This document shows positions 4,690 to 58,251 of a stretch of DNA of 64,000 nt, in pieces. This DNA comes from Bacteroidales bacterium (GTDB taxonomy: Bacteria; Bacteroidota; Bacteroidia; Bacteroidales; F082): NCBI GenBank assembly GCA_017394865.1, contig JAFPWT010000011.1, positions 124,001-188,000 on the forward strand, written 5' to 3'. The stretch's first letter is position 1. The number at the start of each line of letters is the position of its first letter. A program made the position numbers and the translations under genes. The notes beneath the pieces were generated by a model. It searched no databases. It had not been told where the DNA came from and was given only the letters and a program-made list of their open reading frames with translations.

Positions 4690-6024
4690 ATGGTATTGGA
4701 TTGTCCTACAGGAAAAATCATTTTGGCTTTGAGCGGCGGCATCGACTCGATGGTGCTGGCTGACCTGCTGTTGCGGGCTAAAGCGGACTTCGTGCTGGCG
4801 CATTGCAATTTCCATCTGCGTGGTGAGGAGTCAGATGGCGATGAACAATTTGTTCGAGATTATGCTGCAAAGCACGACCTAACCCTCTATGTGAAGCATT
4901 TTGATACCGAGAATTATGCCAAAGAACATGGCATCTCCATTGAGATGGCCGCCCGTGACCTGCGCTATGCCTGGTTTGAGGAGCTACATCAACATTTGGG
5001 TTATGATTACATTGCTGTTGCCCATCACGCCGATGACCAGTTGGAAACTTTTTTCATTAATTTATTAAGAGGTGCCGGCATCAGAGGCTTGAAAGGAATG
5101 CAGCCTGTCAATGGACATATCATCCGACCACTGTTGGACATTTCGAGAGCGGAAATCCGGCAATATGCCGAGGAGCATCATCTCCAGTGGCGTGAGGACC
5201 ATACCAATGCCGAGACGCTGTACCTGCGCAATAAGATTCGTCATGAACTATTGCCAGTGATTGATAGTATCTCCAAAGAGGGGAGGACTTCCATCCTGAA
5301 ATCCATCAGCCATCTGGCCTCGGAAAATGAGCTTTATCGGGAGTTGGTGAGCGAAAAGCTATCGCAGTGGGTAACAAAAGATGCTTTGTCCATGTCATTG
5401 CGCAACACGGAGCCTAGCGGAGCGGGGTACTCCCTGCAGCACCTTGCCGTAACTCCCGCAGGGAGTTATGCAGTGCCGCAGGGAGTACCCCGCTCCGATC
5501 AGTTCCCTTCCGGTCAACTTCTATTTGAATGGCTTAGGGACTATGACTTCAACTCCGACCAAGTCCATTTTATCTATGAAGCCCTAAAAACCAGCCAACC
5601 TGGCACCTGTTTCTTTTCCCCGACACATCGGGTGACCATCGAACGTGATGGCCTTGAATTGATGCCGATTTGCCAACAGGATGAGTCCCTCCTGGAATTG
5701 TTGTATGAGCAAATCCCTAACGATAATAGCTTTGTCATGGACGCTTCCTACAAGGTAGCCCAATTGGATTACGATAAGCTAACCTTCCCATTAAACCTCC
5801 GTAAGTGGCAAGTTGGCGACCGATTCTACCCCTTGGGGATGAAGGGCTCCAAACTACTGAGTGATTTTTTTGTGGATCAAAAAATGACTACTCGTCAAAA
5901 AGAGGAATGCTATGTGCTCGCCACAGCGCATGATGAGATCGTATGGGTGGTTGGGAGACGTATCGACGACCGTTTCAAGGTGACAGACAAAACAAAAACT
6001 ATTCTGAAAGTTCAAATTGTTTAA
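4690..6024 (+). CDS. tilS: tRNA(Ile)-lysidine synthase, with in-frame palindromic insertion
   Basis: TilS uses ATP to attach lysine to C34 of tRNA-Ile(CAU), changing its decoding from AUG to AUA; the gene is normally essential. The PP-loop SGGIDS is at residues 15-20 and the family stretch VAHHADDQLETF near residue 115. A C-terminal domain follows (FPLNLRKWQVGDRF, then KLLSDFFVDQKM). At 444 residues it is of normal length apart from about 28 residues (243-270) encoded by an 80-base palindromic element inserted in frame between the catalytic domain and the LLFEWLRDYDF segment. The gene stays open across the insertion. The start ATG at 4690 places the P-loop strand close to the N-terminus, as in homologues. 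Confidence 0.93.
   Translation: MVLDCPTGKIILALSGGIDSMVLADLLLRAKADFVLAHCNFHLRGEESDGDEQFVRDYAAKHDLTLYVKHFDTENYAKEHGISIEMAARDLRYAWFEELHQHLGYDYIAVAHHADDQLETFFINLLRGAGIRGLKGMQPVNGHIIRPLLDISRAEIRQYAEEHHLQWREDHTNAETLYLRNKIRHELLPVIDSISKEGRTSILKSISHLASENELYRELVSEKLSQWVTKDALSMSLRNTEPSGAGYSLQHLAVTPAGSYAVPQGVPRSDQFPSGQLLFEWLRDYDFNSDQVHFIYEALKTSQPGTCFFSPTHRVTIERDGLELMPICQQDESLLELLYEQIPNDNSFVMDASYKVAQLDYDKLTFPLNLRKWQVGDRFYPLGMKGSKLLSDFFVDQKMTTRQKEECYVLATAHDEIVWVVGRRIDDRFKVTDKTKTILKVQIV
5418..5497. repeat. Palindromic element inserted in-frame within tilS
   Basis: A perfect 20-base inverted repeat (5418-5437 against 5478-5497, arm beginning CGGAGCGGGGTAC) encloses a second hairpin, TAACTCCC/GGGAGTTA (5450-5457 and 5461-5468, loop GCA), and a 4-base stem (5439-5442/5473-5476). 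The whole folds as a branched stem-loop in RNA and is translated within tilS without a stop codon. It resembles in behaviour the protein-coding palindromic elements known from Rickettsia, although the sequence is different. Confidence 0.85.
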
Positions 6025-23160: not shown

Positions 23161-25629
23161 ATGAAAAAGTTATCTTTACTCATTGCGATGATTGCCTTCG
23201 TTTGCGGCAATACTTTCGCTCAGTTGAGCTACGACTTTGAAGACGGCACTGCCGGCGCTAAGATTGCTCAGACCTATGGTATGCCTTGGACTACTTGGAC
23301 CAATAGTCCTGGTGGCTCTGAAGACGGTGTCTTCGATGAGGCTGGTGGCTCAATGGCCGCTCACTTCACCTATGGCAACGACCAAATCCTTTATCTTGGC
23401 GACCACGAAGTCGGTGTTTACGACCTTGAGTTCGATGCCTATGTCCCGAATGGCAAGAACGGTTACTTCAATGTGCTTCACCACTTTGACGGTAACAACA
23501 GCAACAACTGCATTTGGGCCATCCAAGTTTACATGCATGAAACCAACGACGGTCAGAACTCCACCAGCGCTCCCGGCCACGGCACTGTGCACGCCGGTAG
23601 CAGCGGCACCGCCGACCTTCCTTGCGTTTACGACCAGTGGATGCACTTCCGCGTCCATGTCGATGCCGACAACGATGTCGCTCAACTCTACTTCAACGTG
23701 GTTGGCGAACCCGAAGTGATGTATGCCGAATGGCAGTGGAGCTTGGACAGCTTTGGTGAGAACACCACCAACCGTATCCTCGGCGCCATGGACTTCTTCC
23801 CGCCTGAGAATGCCGCTACCTCTGAGTATTACATCGACAACCTCACCGTCACGCTGCAGAGCAACGACGAGGAGTTGATCTACGATCCTTTCGAGGAGTA
23901 CACCGTGGGTAACAAGATCGCCACTGAGGCTCTTGCTGCCGGTCACGACTGGTGGACCACTTGGAGCAACGCTCCCGGCGGCGCTGAAGACGGCGTTGTT
24001 GCCGACCTCGATGGCAACAAGTGCGGTTACCTCACCTATGGTACCGACCAGGTCATCCTCCTCGGCGATGCCGACAATGGCAACTACGACCTTGAGTTCG
24101 ACATCTATGTCCCGAATGGCAAGAACGGTTACTTCAACGTGCTGCACCACTTCGCTGGCCAAAATAGCACCTGGGCCATGCAGTGCTACCTCCACCTGAC
24201 CAACGACGGCCAGAACTCCACCAGCGCTCCCGGTCACGGTACCATCCACGCCGGTAGCAACGGCACCGCCGACATCGAATGCGTCTACGATGCTTGGATG
24301 CACTTCCGCCTGAACATCGACACCGACACCGACGAAGCCAACTACTACTACACCGCTCCTGGTGGTGAAGAACAACTTGTCTGCACCTGGCAGTGGAGCT
24401 TGGACAGCTTCGGTAACAACACCGTGGGCCGTACCCTCGCCGCCATGGACTTCTTCCCGCCTCAGGACGCCGCTACTTCTGAGTTCTATGTCGACAACTT
24501 CAAACTGACCAAGATCGGTGGCGAATCCGCTCCTGTGCTCAGCTTAGATACTGAATCGATTTCCATTGAACTGATGGAAGACGACATGGATACCGAAGAG
24601 ATCGTCATTGAAAACAGTGGCAACTCCATTGGCGACTGGTCTGGTTGGGTTGACTTCGGCGAAGGTGGCACTGGCTCTCAGACTGCTCAACTCTACTATC
24701 ACGACAACAACACTGACGCTGCTAGTGGTATTGGTTCATCCGATGCATACAGCCGTGAATTCGGTATCCGTCTGCCCGCCACTGCTTACGCTGGCTCCGC
24801 TATGGGTATGAAGATCACCTCAGCTCAGTTCTATGTCAATAGCTATACCGCCACTGACTACAACTACGTCTTCCGCGTCTATGGTCAAGGCCTCCACAAC
24901 CAGCCTGGTGAACTTCTCGCTGAAAAGACCGTCAACACCACGGCCACGCTGCAGTGGATCACCGCTACTTTCGACGAGCCTGTTTACATGACCGGTCAAG
25001 CCATGTGGGTAACCGTAGCACTTGAACAGACTGCTGGTGAATATCCTATGACTATGGACTCTGGCGAATATGGTGAAGAACAAGATGGTAACTGGCTCAG
25101 CACCAATGGTAACAGCTTCAGCCACTGCTACAGCTCCGGTAACTTCGGTGGTGCTTGGATGATCACTGTCAACTGCCAAGGTACCCAAGTTCCTGCTACA
25201 TGGGTTTCCGCCAATAAGACTGAAGGCACCATCCTGGGTGGACAGTCAGAGACCATCACCCTTACCTTCAACACCATCGGTCTTGAACAGGGTGAATATG
25301 GCGCAACGATGATCATCAATACCAACGACCTCGAACTGCCTCATGTTGAGATCCCGTTGAGATTGGTGGCCAACTACGACGCTGTTGCTGAAAGCACTGT
25401 CAATGGTTACGAGATCTATCCTAACCCTGCCACCACTTCAGTGAACCTGAAGGGTGAAAACCTCAGCCATGTCGCTATCTACAATGTGGCTGGTCAGCTG
25501 GTCCGCGTGGTGAAACTCAACGATGTGGTCAACACCATCGACATGAATGTTGAAGCTGGTATCTACTTCTTCAGCATCTACGACAACAACGGCGGTAACA
25601 CCGTCCAGCGTGTCGTCATCACTAAATAA
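23161..25629 (+). CDS. T9SS-secreted protein with duplicated jelly-roll-like module
   Basis: This 822-residue protein has a signal peptide (ending in TFAQ), two tandem modules of about 220 residues (20-240 and 241-455) with shared sequence such as YVPNGKNGYFNVLHHF and QNSTSAPGHGT, a third module (about 500-690) with PGELLAEKTV and MWVTVALE, and a T9SS type A sorting domain (about 745-822, YEIYPNPATTSVNLKG). The first modules look like concanavalin/laminin-G-type sandwiches. Nothing catalytic is recognised, so carbohydrate or matrix binding is an inference. Codon choice is unusually uniform (GGT/GGC, AAC, TAC), suggesting high expression. Confidence 0.82.
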   Translation: MKKLSLLIAMIAFVCGNTFAQLSYDFEDGTAGAKIAQTYGMPWTTWTNSPGGSEDGVFDEAGGSMAAHFTYGNDQILYLGDHEVGVYDLEFDAYVPNGKNGYFNVLHHFDGNNSNNCIWAIQVYMHETNDGQNSTSAPGHGTVHAGSSGTADLPCVYDQWMHFRVHVDADNDVAQLYFNVVGEPEVMYAEWQWSLDSFGENTTNRILGAMDFFPPENAATSEYYIDNLTVTLQSNDEELIYDPFEEYTVGNKIATEALAAGHDWWTTWSNAPGGAEDGVVADLDGNKCGYLTYGTDQVILLGDADNGNYDLEFDIYVPNGKNGYFNVLHHFAGQNSTWAMQCYLHLTNDGQNSTSAPGHGTIHAGSNGTADIECVYDAWMHFRLNIDTDTDEANYYYTAPGGEEQLVCTWQWSLDSFGNNTVGRTLAAMDFFPPQDAATSEFYVDNFKLTKIGGESAPVLSLDTESISIELMEDDMDTEEIVIENSGNSIGDWSGWVDFGEGGTGSQTAQLYYHDNNTDAASGIGSSDAYSREFGIRLPATAYAGSAMGMKITSAQFYVNSYTATDYNYVFRVYGQGLHNQPGELLAEKTVNTTATLQWITATFDEPVYMTGQAMWVTVALEQTAGEYPMTMDSGEYGEEQDGNWLSTNGNSFSHCYSSGNFGGAWMITVNCQGTQVPATWVSANKTEGTILGGQSETITLTFNTIGLEQGEYGATMIINTNDLELPHVEIPLRLVANYDAVAESTVNGYEIYPNPATTSVNLKGENLSHVAIYNVAGQLVRVVKLNDVVNTIDMNVEAGIYFFSIYDNNGGNTVQRVVITK

Positions 25630-25654
25630 TCTAATTCATAGATTTATTCAAAAT

Positions 25655-25690
25655 GTAGAGACGTGCCATGGCGCGTCTCTACGTTTTTTT
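25655..25690. terminator. Palindromic terminator, GTAGAGACG type
   Basis: GTAGAGACG (25655-25663) pairs with CGTCTCTAC (25674-25682) around a self-complementary GCCATGGC, followed by seven or more T. The same core occurs at 48071-48099. The next promoter begins right after the T-run. Confidence 0.85.
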
Positions 25691-25698
25691 TATATTTG
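25691..25698 (+). promoter_or_regulatory. -7 element (TATATTTG) for cdsA
   Basis: TATATTTG lies 4 bases before the ATG at 25703. The transcript would be leaderless or nearly so. Confidence 0.55.
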
Positions 25699-25702
25699 CA
25701 CC

Positions 25703-26491
25703 ATGAAAGAATTGTTGGTCAGAACGATCTCAGGTGCGGTGCTGGTGGCCGTTATTGTCGCCTGTGTCCTTGTCTCTTCGTGGACCTTCTGGGCACTGGC
25801 GTTGCTGATTGTTGCCATAGGCACCTTCGAGATGAGCCGGCTGATGCATGTCAAGAGTTGGTGGCAACTGATGCTTGGCGAGGTGTTGACCGTGGGAACC
25901 TATGCCTATGTCACGCTGGGAATGCTGAGTGAAATGCCGTTCTCAAACTTGGCTTTGCTGCTTCCCCTGCTGCCTTTCCTGTTTGCCTTGTTTTCCACCA
26001 CTACCGATTTCAAGACAATCGCCTCTTTTAACTTTGGCTCCATAGTTTTGCTGAGTCTCCCATGTATCTTAATGGTATGGATGCATGAAGTCTTCACGCC
26101 GAAGATGCTGTTGCTGGTGTTTGTCGTGCTATGGGCCAACGACACTTTCGCATACCTCACTGGACGTTTGCTTGGCAAGCATAAGCTCTTCGAGCGCATC
26201 TCGCCCGGAAAGACCATCGAGGGTAGTATCGGAGGTTTGGTGCTCACTTTGGCTGGCATGGTCATCTTCAGTTATTGTGTGGATTGGCTACCTCTTAAAA
26301 CCGCCATCGGTATTGGTTTGATCGCTGTAATATTCGGCACCTTGGGCGATCTGTGCGAGTCGATGCTGAAACGTCAGGCCGGGGTGAAGGATTCAGGGAA
26401 ACTTATTCCTGGACACGGTGGCGTCTTGGATCGATTCGACTCAGTTTTGTTCGCTGTGCCGTTTGTTTTTGTATTTTTGTTTTTTGTATGA
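25703..26491 (+). CDS. cdsA: Phosphatidate cytidylyltransferase
   Basis: This 262-residue inner-membrane protein turns phosphatidate and CTP into CDP-diacylglycerol, the precursor of all phospholipids. It has about eight membrane segments and the C-terminal signature GDLCESMLKRQAGVKDSGK followed by PGHGGVLDRFDS. The start MKELLVRTISGA is chosen because the longer frame runs antisense-free through the terminator upstream. The stop overlaps the psd start by 4 bases (ATGA), so CDP-DAG synthesis and phosphatidylserine decarboxylation are co-expressed; a phosphatidylserine synthase must be elsewhere. Confidence 0.92.
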   Translation: MKELLVRTISGAVLVAVIVACVLVSSWTFWALALLIVAIGTFEMSRLMHVKSWWQLMLGEVLTVGTYAYVTLGMLSEMPFSNLALLLPLLPFLFALFSTTTDFKTIASFNFGSIVLLSLPCILMVWMHEVFTPKMLLLVFVVLWANDTFAYLTGRLLGKHKLFERISPGKTIEGSIGGLVLTLAGMVIFSYCVDWLPLKTAIGIGLIAVIFGTLGDLCESMLKRQAGVKDSGKLIPGHGGVLDRFDSVLFAVPFVFVFLFFV

Positions 26492-47224: not shown

Positions 47225-48064
47225 ATGAAACTGAGAAAACAAACATTGTTAATGACAGCCGTTCTAATCCTAGCAATGGCGTCATGCGTCAATAATTCAA
47301 ATGAAAAACCCAGCGAGGCGAAAGATACACCCGTTGTTGAGAAGCCCTCGATACAAGAGCAAGCCCCTGTGGTCGGGCCACTTACCGCTTATTATGCAAC
47401 AGAGGACTTTAATGCTGGCTATTTTGAATACAAGAAAGGACAATTAATCTGCGACTCAAACGACCCAATTAACAGGATTGTGGAAAATGATGCCGATAAC
47501 TATAAATATGAAGGTGATGACACGGGTGAATACTACTCGTGGCTGCTCCCTAAGTCAAAAGTGGAGAAGAAGACCTTTACGATGAACCAACTCACTCCTC
47601 AGAATGTTGGCAATAAAGCGGTTTTTGTGTCGAGTGATGGCTGCACAGCAAAGATTTTTTGGTCAAATATCAATGGACATCAATACTATAACTATGATGG
47701 GAGTGAGGAGAACTGGCGCGAAACAGAGCGTTTGTCCGAGTGTTACGTCTTAAGTGTTGAACTGATCAGTGCCTGGAGTGGAGAAAAATATCTGTTTGAA
47801 GAACAACTGGAAGAAAAACAGGGCTTTATTAAATTATTTGCGGAGGATCCTTATGGCAGAGATCACGGTTTGGTAGGCTTTGTTGTAGAAAAATGGCTTA
47901 ATAAGGAAGGATGGGGTTACGCGAAAACAGCCTATGACGAAAGCGGAAAATTACTTGTTGACCAATGGGAGTGCGCCGATATTCCAGAATATATCTCCAT
48001 TGCCTATATTGCTGATTTGGATGCTCTTTATATTGAAGGAGATTTATATTTGCGTAAGCTATAA
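47225..48064 (+). CDS. Uncharacterised lipoprotein
   Basis: This 279-residue protein has a lipobox (LAMASC, Cys21) followed by a disordered Lys/Glu/Pro-rich linker (about 25-58). The rest contains ENDADNYKYEGDDTGEYYSW and is mixed alpha/beta, but no family is recognisable. It follows the rhodanese-MBL gene by 33 bases and is probably co-transcribed. It ends next to the GTAGAGACG palindrome. Confidence 0.6.
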   Translation: MKLRKQTLLMTAVLILAMASCVNNSNEKPSEAKDTPVVEKPSIQEQAPVVGPLTAYYATEDFNAGYFEYKKGQLICDSNDPINRIVENDADNYKYEGDDTGEYYSWLLPKSKVEKKTFTMNQLTPQNVGNKAVFVSSDGCTAKIFWSNINGHQYYNYDGSEENWRETERLSECYVLSVELISAWSGEKYLFEEQLEEKQGFIKLFAEDPYGRDHGLVGFVVEKWLNKEGWGYAKTAYDESGKLLVDQWECADIPEYISIAYIADLDALYIEGDLYLRKL

Positions 48065-48070
48065 AAAAAC

Positions 48071-48099
48071 GTAGAGACGCCATTTTATGGCGTCTCTAC
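48071..48099. repeat. Palindromic repeat, GTAGAGACG type, acting as a bidirectional terminator
   Basis: GTAGAGACGCCAT (48071-48083) pairs perfectly with ATGGCGTCTCTAC (48087-48099) around TTT. The GTAGAGACG/CGTCTCTAC arms are the same as at 25655-25682. It separates two convergent genes. Confidence 0.85.
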
Positions 48100-48121
48100 A
48101 TGTTCTTATCGGGAATCGAAA

Positions 48122-57227: not shown

Positions 57228-58211
57228 ATGAAACGTCATTTCATCTTGTTTTTATTGTTCCTTCCCGTCGCGCTGATGGCGCAGAAAATCACTGTGGAAG
57301 AGTATATTGAAACGTATAAGGATATTGCCATGAAGGAGATGCGGAATCATAAGATACCGGCTTCCATCACGTTGGCCCAGGGTATCCTTGAGTCGGGGGC
57401 AGGCAACAGCAGATTGGCGCGTGAGGCGAAAAACCATTTTGGAATCAAATGCCACAAAGGTTGGACAGGAGATACCTACACCATGGACGACGATGAGAAG
57501 GATGAGTGCTTCCGCAAATACAAGAAGGTGGAGGACTCGTTTCGCGATCATTCGGAATTTTTGACCGGCCGGTCGCGGTATGCCGATTTGTTCAAGCTCG
57601 ACATCATGGACTACGAAGGCTGGGCCAAGGGGCTGAAGGCAGCCGGTTACGCCACCAGTCCCACCTATGCCACTGCGCTGATCAACCGCATCAACATGAA
57701 CAAGTTGTATTTGTACGACCAGTTGGCCATGGGCCTCATCACTGAGAAAGAACTTAAAAAGCGGATGAAGGAAGAGAGCGGTACGCCCATCAAAGGATCG
57801 ACGGAATTGGAGTTGGCCTATTCGCCTAAGGATCGCTCGTCGTTCGAGTTGGTCGACATGACGGCCGACAAGCGTTTCCTATATGAGAACAACGGCGTTC
57901 GTTTTGTGTATGCCAAGGAAGGGGAGACGCCTGAAAGTATCGCCAAGGAGTTTGGTATCAAGCAGAAAAGGCTTTGCGAATATAATCTGATCACACGTCC
58001 TGAAGAGGTGGTGTTCCACTGTGGCGATGTGGTTTATCTGGAGAAGCTGCACAAGCGCAACAGCGACACGAAGCGTTATACCGCTGTCGGTGGCGAAAGT
58101 GTTCGCGACATTGCGTTGCGTTTCGCTGTGCGGCCCGATAAGATCATCAGCCGAAACGACCTAGAGGAGGGAGAGAAACTCAAGCCGGGTCAGGTGATCA
58201 AGCTACGTTAA
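57228..58211 (+). CDS. Exported N-acetylglucosaminidase with LysM domains
   Basis: This 327-residue protein has a signal peptide (ending ALMAQ), a glucosaminidase domain of the FlgJ type (about 25-165; catalytic Glu55 in TLAQGILESGAGNSRLA, then FGIKCHKGW) and two LysM domains (about 225-270 and 282-327) that bind peptidoglycan. It is likely a periplasmic cell wall hydrolase acting in growth or division. The start is chosen from the signal peptide. Confidence 0.9.
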   Translation: MKRHFILFLLFLPVALMAQKITVEEYIETYKDIAMKEMRNHKIPASITLAQGILESGAGNSRLAREAKNHFGIKCHKGWTGDTYTMDDDEKDECFRKYKKVEDSFRDHSEFLTGRSRYADLFKLDIMDYEGWAKGLKAAGYATSPTYATALINRINMNKLYLYDQLAMGLITEKELKKRMKEESGTPIKGSTELELAYSPKDRSSFELVDMTADKRFLYENNGVRFVYAKEGETPESIAKEFGIKQKRLCEYNLITRPEEVVFHCGDVVYLEKLHKRNSDTKRYTAVGGESVRDIALRFAVRPDKIISRNDLEEGEKLKPGQVIKLR

Positions 58212-58251
58212 AATAACAGAGCCGCAGGAATTCCTGCGGCTCTGTTATTTT
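58210..58251 (+). terminator. Perfect 21-bp inverted-repeat terminator
   Basis: AAAATAACAGAGCCGCAGGA and its full complement form a 42-base palindrome with no spacer, starting in the stop codon of the glucosaminidase and ending in a T-run. Confidence 0.92.

Follow-up and report, generated by a model that had tools for sequence, protein, structure and literature searches.

Introduction

The palindromic elements of Rickettsia occur in several copies, part of which are translated in frame inside unrelated genes (excerpt of PMC10969869). In-frame palindromic repeats were previously known chiefly from Rickettsia, and intragenic REPs have been reported more widely. CGTC-tagged REPs are known from Bacteroidetes, where they are also intragenic and have been described as lacking a dedicated transposase (excerpt of PMC3733652). 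Template switching between inverted repeats is further reported to homogenise the arms and to invert the spacer between them, yeast coding DNA included (excerpt of PMC8604942).

A 64-kb stretch of DNA (hereafter the window) from a Bacteroidales genome (G000; GenBank assembly GCA_017394865.1) carries a palindrome inside tilS, the gene of tRNA(Ile)-lysidine synthase. It is a copy of what we call family A, a dispersed, non-autonomous palindromic repeat that represents a new family of an already known repeat kind. A search of the open-licence PMC literature gave no report of family A or of repeated use of the TilS loop in Bacteroidales. Two features were less expected: loops common to unrelated repeat families, and an apparent in-place inversion of the core combined with paired evolution of the arms.

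Comparison with described systems

By description, family A resembles the Rickettsia palindromic elements in being dispersed, multi-copy and partly in frame in unrelated genes. It is shorter (about 84 bp against about 150 bp) and lies less often within genes (10 of 47 copies against nearly half), according to excerpts of PMC10969869 and PMC6649704. Its arms change and yet pair, whereas the Rickettsia elements are reported to lose repeat identity over time (excerpt of PMC6649704). The core of family A is moreover found inverted at orthologous sites, and its intergenic copies have no more open frames than shuffles (2.05 against 2.07). The first-pass annotation had proposed a Bacteroidales counterpart of the Rickettsia elements; this is partly supported. 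The translated copies are spread over unrelated genes, with differing frames and both orientations represented, and the family at large is mainly intergenic (37 of 47 copies).

Families B and D, two other repeats described below, start with CGTCAT and look like members of the CGTC-tagged REPs. Family A differs from these REPs in having no terminal CGTC tag (6 of 47 copies have CGTC or GACG close to an end) and in its longer, variable arms. With the GTAG REPs of the RAYT system it shares the hairpin form and a location between genes that are convergent or in tandem (excerpt of PMC3733652), but GTAG adjoins the core in only 11 of 47 copies and no linked Y1 transposase was found in the carrier genomes, which are incomplete. 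The coding palindromes of nematomorph mitochondria are also inverted repeats in coding sequence with arm identity kept, for which template switching has been proposed; their arms encode conserved protein regions, whereas family A is an extra, dispersed insert (excerpt of PMC6649704). Template switching in yeast coding DNA is similar in arm homogenisation and spacer inversion, but concerns short native inverted repeats rather than a dispersed element (excerpt of PMC8604942). As in invertons, a segment bounded by inverted repeats is met in both orientations at one locus, which for family A was observed between species in 4 of 9 orthologous sets.

The palindromic element in tilS

The host gene tilS (4690–6024, forward strand; ORF of 444 aa) encodes a product with the Pfam domains ATP_bind_3 (PF01171, E 1.4e-55) and TilS_C (PF11734, E 1e-7). 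tilS is an essential gene, and a single tilS match was present in G000, the assembly of which measures 2.08 Mb in 19 contigs and is 73% complete. The closest named records in the TilS search were Bacteroidales/Bacteroidia MAGs, several of them from ruminant rumen, reticulum or gut.

The family A element occupies 5418–5497 on the forward strand and is read in the tilS frame as residues 243–270. The first-pass annotation had described a 20-base inverted repeat around an 8-base stem, adding about 28 residues without stop or frameshift, and the sequence bears out both statements. The left outer arm (5418–5437, forward strand) is a perfect complement of the right outer arm (5478–5497, forward strand) over 20 nt, and the inner hairpin TAACTCCC/GGGAGTTA of 8 bp, with GCAC/GTGC beneath it, is present. 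The asymmetric core hairpin GCACCTTGCCGTAACTCCC-GCA-GGGAGTTATGCAGTGC spans 5439–5476 on the forward strand, and an imperfect 34-bp arm extension (5409–5442/5473–5506) is 85% complementary. The insert was the top-scoring hairpin of the window with a score of 22, followed by a runner-up of 19. Three mononucleotide shuffles of the window reached a maximum of 11, which makes a chance palindrome extremely improbable.

Comparison with congeneric TilS sequences revealed that the insert is missing from 55 of the 56 examined, and BLAST of G000 with positions 5400–5510 located one further copy with E 1.5e-12, followed by others with E 5.6e-5 and 1.0e-4. At least 15 copies could finally be listed in G000, both in genes and between genes, and none besides the tilS copy was found in the window by the second family model (R2). 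Under R2 the tilS insert scored 82.6 bits (E 8.7e-22), a score that is partly by construction, since this copy is among the 41 training sequences. A native conserved segment of TilS would be in frame as well, but its absence from nearly all congeneric TilS proteins and the copies elsewhere leave this explanation with next to no probability.

The insert appears to be nested. A stretch GTCATTGCG...CGGAGC at 5395–5421 (forward strand), which extends into the beginning of the left arm, was aligned by eye as an apparent left-half remnant of family B. It precedes the G000 insert and, by eye, recurs in the linkers of three other tilS genes, those of G013, G050 and G008. In G050 and G008 it belongs to family B inserts, so that family A seems to lie inside a family B remnant. 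The G013 linker ends with a short stretch which by eye resembles the left arm of the G000 copy and could be the scar of a deletion or sequence that predates the insertion. This stretch had hinted at an origin of the arms from host flank by inverted duplication, an idea that was rejected as the main one; the stretch also fits the arm consensus of family A, so that a deletion scar is equally likely. At the copies L030/L064 (G053:C3) and L038 (G023:C11) the flanks are themselves complementary, as if the copy lay inside an older palindrome.

Distribution of family A

A covariance model built from 13 copies was run on 60 congeneric genomes, and the R2 model, built from 41 copies, was run on the seven carriers. 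With at most 75 candidates scored per genome for the first model, under stricter filters, and at most 150 for the second, all copy numbers are lower bounds. With strands merged, at least 47 copies were listed in 7 of the 60 congeners, namely at least 15 in G000, 11 in G052, 10 in G023, 6 in G013, 3 in G066, and 1 each in G008 and G053. R2 returned the same set together with one weak match (G053:C119, 30 bits), which was left out of the 47, as was the half copy G013:C36. Family A was not found among the candidates scored in the remaining 53 congeners. BLAST with the raw tilS stretch also detected family A copies in G013 and G023, and blastn of the tilS copy against 16 genomes from other families gave no match. 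A tree of 53 TilS sequences places five carriers and five non-carriers together in one clade of ten (support 100/100); the TilS sequences of two further carriers, G013 and G053, were not long enough for the tree.

The family A unit of about 84 bp consists of a conserved, asymmetric core hairpin of 35–38 nt inside longer complementary arms. Its presence and absence among relatives suggest that it may have been mobile recently; at the sites examined, the flanks of empty sites were too diverged for a target-site duplication to be read.

Ten of the 47 listed copies lie in frame within ORFs of five unrelated genes: one in tilS (G000), one in a gene for a FakA-like protein with PF02734 and PF13684 (G000), two in the U32 peptidase gene (G000, G052), four in GH106 (G000, G013, G023, G052) and two in a gene for an LTD-domain secreted protein (G013, G023). 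The copies in tilS and in the LTD gene share one reading frame and yield the similar peptides LQHLAVTPAGSYAVPQ and LRHLAVSPAGRYAVPQ, and in the fakA and U32 copies the opposite strand is read, in two different frames. A half copy is in frame in a G013 gene (L207, about 2271), which by its sequence looks like cysQ. Gene context was based on mechanical ORFs, with Pfam run on six proteins. The other 37 copies are intergenic, of which 18 lie between convergent and 12 between tandem genes, 6 adjoin rRNA operons and 1 is divergent; family A is thus mainly an intergenic repeat of gene 3' ends. The rRNA operon ends of G000 adjoined by copies are at L013 142–313, L009 7368–7539, L016 and L017, with two copies, oppositely oriented, at C1 and C11, and a single one at C18 and C19.

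Open reading frames in family A

The first-pass annotation had proposed that the element is under selection for open frames. This was not borne out by the 37 intergenic copies, in which a mean of 2.05 of the six frames is open compared to 2.07 in mononucleotide shuffles. The ten translated copies have a mean of 3.6 open frames against 2.6 in shuffles, an excess that is what a survivorship filter would give. When the core was flipped in silico, all ten translated copies stayed open. Of the 76 open frames in intergenic copies, 54 likewise stayed open after the flip, as did 64% of the shuffled cores, so that the openness of the flipped translated copies is weak evidence.

Arm pairing and core inversion

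Across 41 copies, 95.3% of the paired cells pair, and two-sided change was evident in 17 of 22 pairs, a level reached by none of 500 shuffles. In 18 non-independent comparisons of orthologous copies, with the folded stretch including 10 nt of flank on each side, 61 pairs had changed on both sides, 37 had changed on one side and still paired, 62 were broken and 482 were unchanged. Two pairs of paralogues at rRNA flanks of G000 have arms that differ by one two-sided pair change, whereas the arm change in a third pair (C18 against C1) is one-sided.

The core was observed in opposite orientation at 4 of 9 orthologous sites, in each case between species: GH106, the 3' side of pepD, a dpp-like and a fucosidase-like gene. 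The flanks of these sets are 70–90% identical, and at pepD they match to both ends of the element, the terminal TAAGCTT included. In GH106, G000 and G013 have one orientation and G023 and G052 the other, and both are translated in silico. In the fucosidase-like set G013 is opposite to G023, and the copy of G000 is ambiguous, with a poor fit to both orientations (scores 10.5 and 11.5). The paired arm changes and the core inversion fit replication template switching between the arms, which we infer to be the cause; re-insertion and a selected RNA structure are possible alternatives. The many unmatched changes among orthologous copies, the one-sided change in the third rRNA-flank pair and the ambiguous G000 copy of the fucosidase-like set count against template switching.

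Protein loops as landing sites

The TilS linker could be compared over 55 congeneric genomes (56 sequences; the fragment of G006 and the second match of G064 were left out), and its length before LLFEW varies from 13 to 59 aa. By motif, family C (the CTGAGCCTGTCGAAG type) was present in 13 of the 56 linkers and family B, whole or partial (the CATTGCGAG/ATTGCTTCG type), in 8. The full palindrome of family D occurs in at least 3 (G054, G069, G011), and its short motif may be native in other TilS linkers; family A occurs in 1. In 12 of the 56 linkers the inverted repeat was reached by at most 1 of 60 dinucleotide shuffles, and hairpin-rich 150-nt windows were found at the linker in 14 of 56 cases compared to 60 of 1135 over the rest of these genes. 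A second palindrome-rich stretch of TilS lies at about residues 320–345 (10 genomes in bin 320).

Family C is met in TilS linkers in both orientations, in different species. Like family A, it is dispersed: matches to its pattern numbered 71 in G059, 43 in G065, 76 in G063 and 12 in G009, with 0–2 in each of the other ten genomes searched and 1 in all for the reversed control. Sister species differ at the linker: family B is present in G050 and absent from G070, family C is present in G049 and absent from G073, and family B is present in G065 and absent from G071.

Other loops behave similarly. G052, G063 and G010 have a short fakA loop, whereas that of G000 contains family A and those of G050 and G070 contain family B. 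In the U32 loop, family A is present in G000 and G052, and most of the ten further sequences compared have other inverted repeats or tandem repeats there. Family B was placed in tilS and fakA of G050, in fakA of G070 and at two places in tilS of G020 (L089), where a family B repeat is also found near the N-terminus of the protein. The proposal that protein loops serve as landing sites is thus well supported, the tilS, fakA and U32 loops being length-variable and each occupied by several repeat families. Since several unrelated families share one loop, the tolerance of the protein can be separated from the preference of a repeat, and the loops are probably tolerated rather than targeted sites.

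Probable origin and renewal of the element

The explanation that we regard as probable is in-frame insertion of the dispersed family A into a tolerant loop, followed by renewal of arms and core through template switching. Family A would have inserted in frame into the TilS linker, after the catalytic domain, at a point where an older insert from another repeat family had apparently left a remnant. Most copies would persist between genes near gene 3' ends, and genic copies would persist only where a length-tolerant loop accepts about 28 residues without a stop; such survival would explain why unrelated repeat families recur in the same loops. Replication template switching would copy a change from either arm into its partner, giving paired changes, and would sometimes invert the core between the arms.

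Among the alternatives, a selected RNA element has the best prospects, although it remains doubtful: family A would be a conserved 3'-end hairpin, a terminator or mRNA stabiliser, in which RNA selection keeps the pairing and genic copies are accidental. The ORF-based placement of the intergenic copies, largely convergent or tandem, and the strong covariation are both expected from it. However, a five-T run lies within 20 nt on either side of only 4 of the 37 intergenic copies, the translated copies likewise keep their pairing, and Rfam gave none of 8 loci at gathering score (best sub-threshold E 0.034, to a plant microRNA model). Core inversion is not predicted by RNA selection either. It could be mimicked by independent insertions at a hot spot, or by replacement with another copy, the comparisons being between species only. 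Such insertions seem somewhat less likely again than the RNA element; they agree with the re-use of loops by different families and with the LTD gene of G013 and G023, where the same core has different arms, but not with the pepD flanks, which match right up to the element.

Movement as a REP-type element by a Y1 (RAYT/TnpA-REP) transposase is improbable. Size, a hairpin with internal loops and placement at gene 3' ends are REP-like (excerpt of PMC3733652), and Y1_Tnp was detected in 42 of 60 congeners, including the carriers G008, G013, G023 and G053. Nevertheless, no Y1_Tnp match was found in G000, G052 or G066, with at least 15, 11 and 3 copies (genomes 73–90% complete), no listed Y1 match of a carrier lies within 6 kb of a listed family A copy, and GTAG, where it adjoins the core, is not terminal. 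A resident Y1 transposase as partner of family A is accordingly not supported by the Y1_Tnp distribution. A site-specific recombinase that flips the core, as in the phase-variable invertons of Bacteroidales, is slightly more improbable still: inverted arms of about 16–20 bp do flank a core found in both orientations, but they vary greatly between copies, unlike a recombinase site. A phage or plasmid origin was also considered and rejected, as neither of two exact core patterns matched any viral contig and an 86-bp blastn query had no match in plasmid and phage collections.

If template switching does renew the element, its genic copies could be self-renewing, invertible coding segments, through which one locus encodes either of two loop peptides. 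This extension is tentative and on balance rather unlikely; the two-peptide reading derives from the inversion between species in GH106 and would be possible in all ten translated copies. If true, such repeats would continually supply core proteins with new loop variants. The paired, apparently inverted orthologues also offer a natural test of template switching against selection for palindrome survival in coding DNA.

Other hairpins in the window

Hairpins of a repeat of the form GTAGAGACG...CGTCTCTAC were observed at 25650–25687, inside the mechanical ORF 25547–26488, and at 48061–48109; a stretch similar to this repeat lies in the U32 loop of G066. The second-ranked hairpin of the window (58210–58251, score 19) is intergenic and terminator-like, with a T-rich end.
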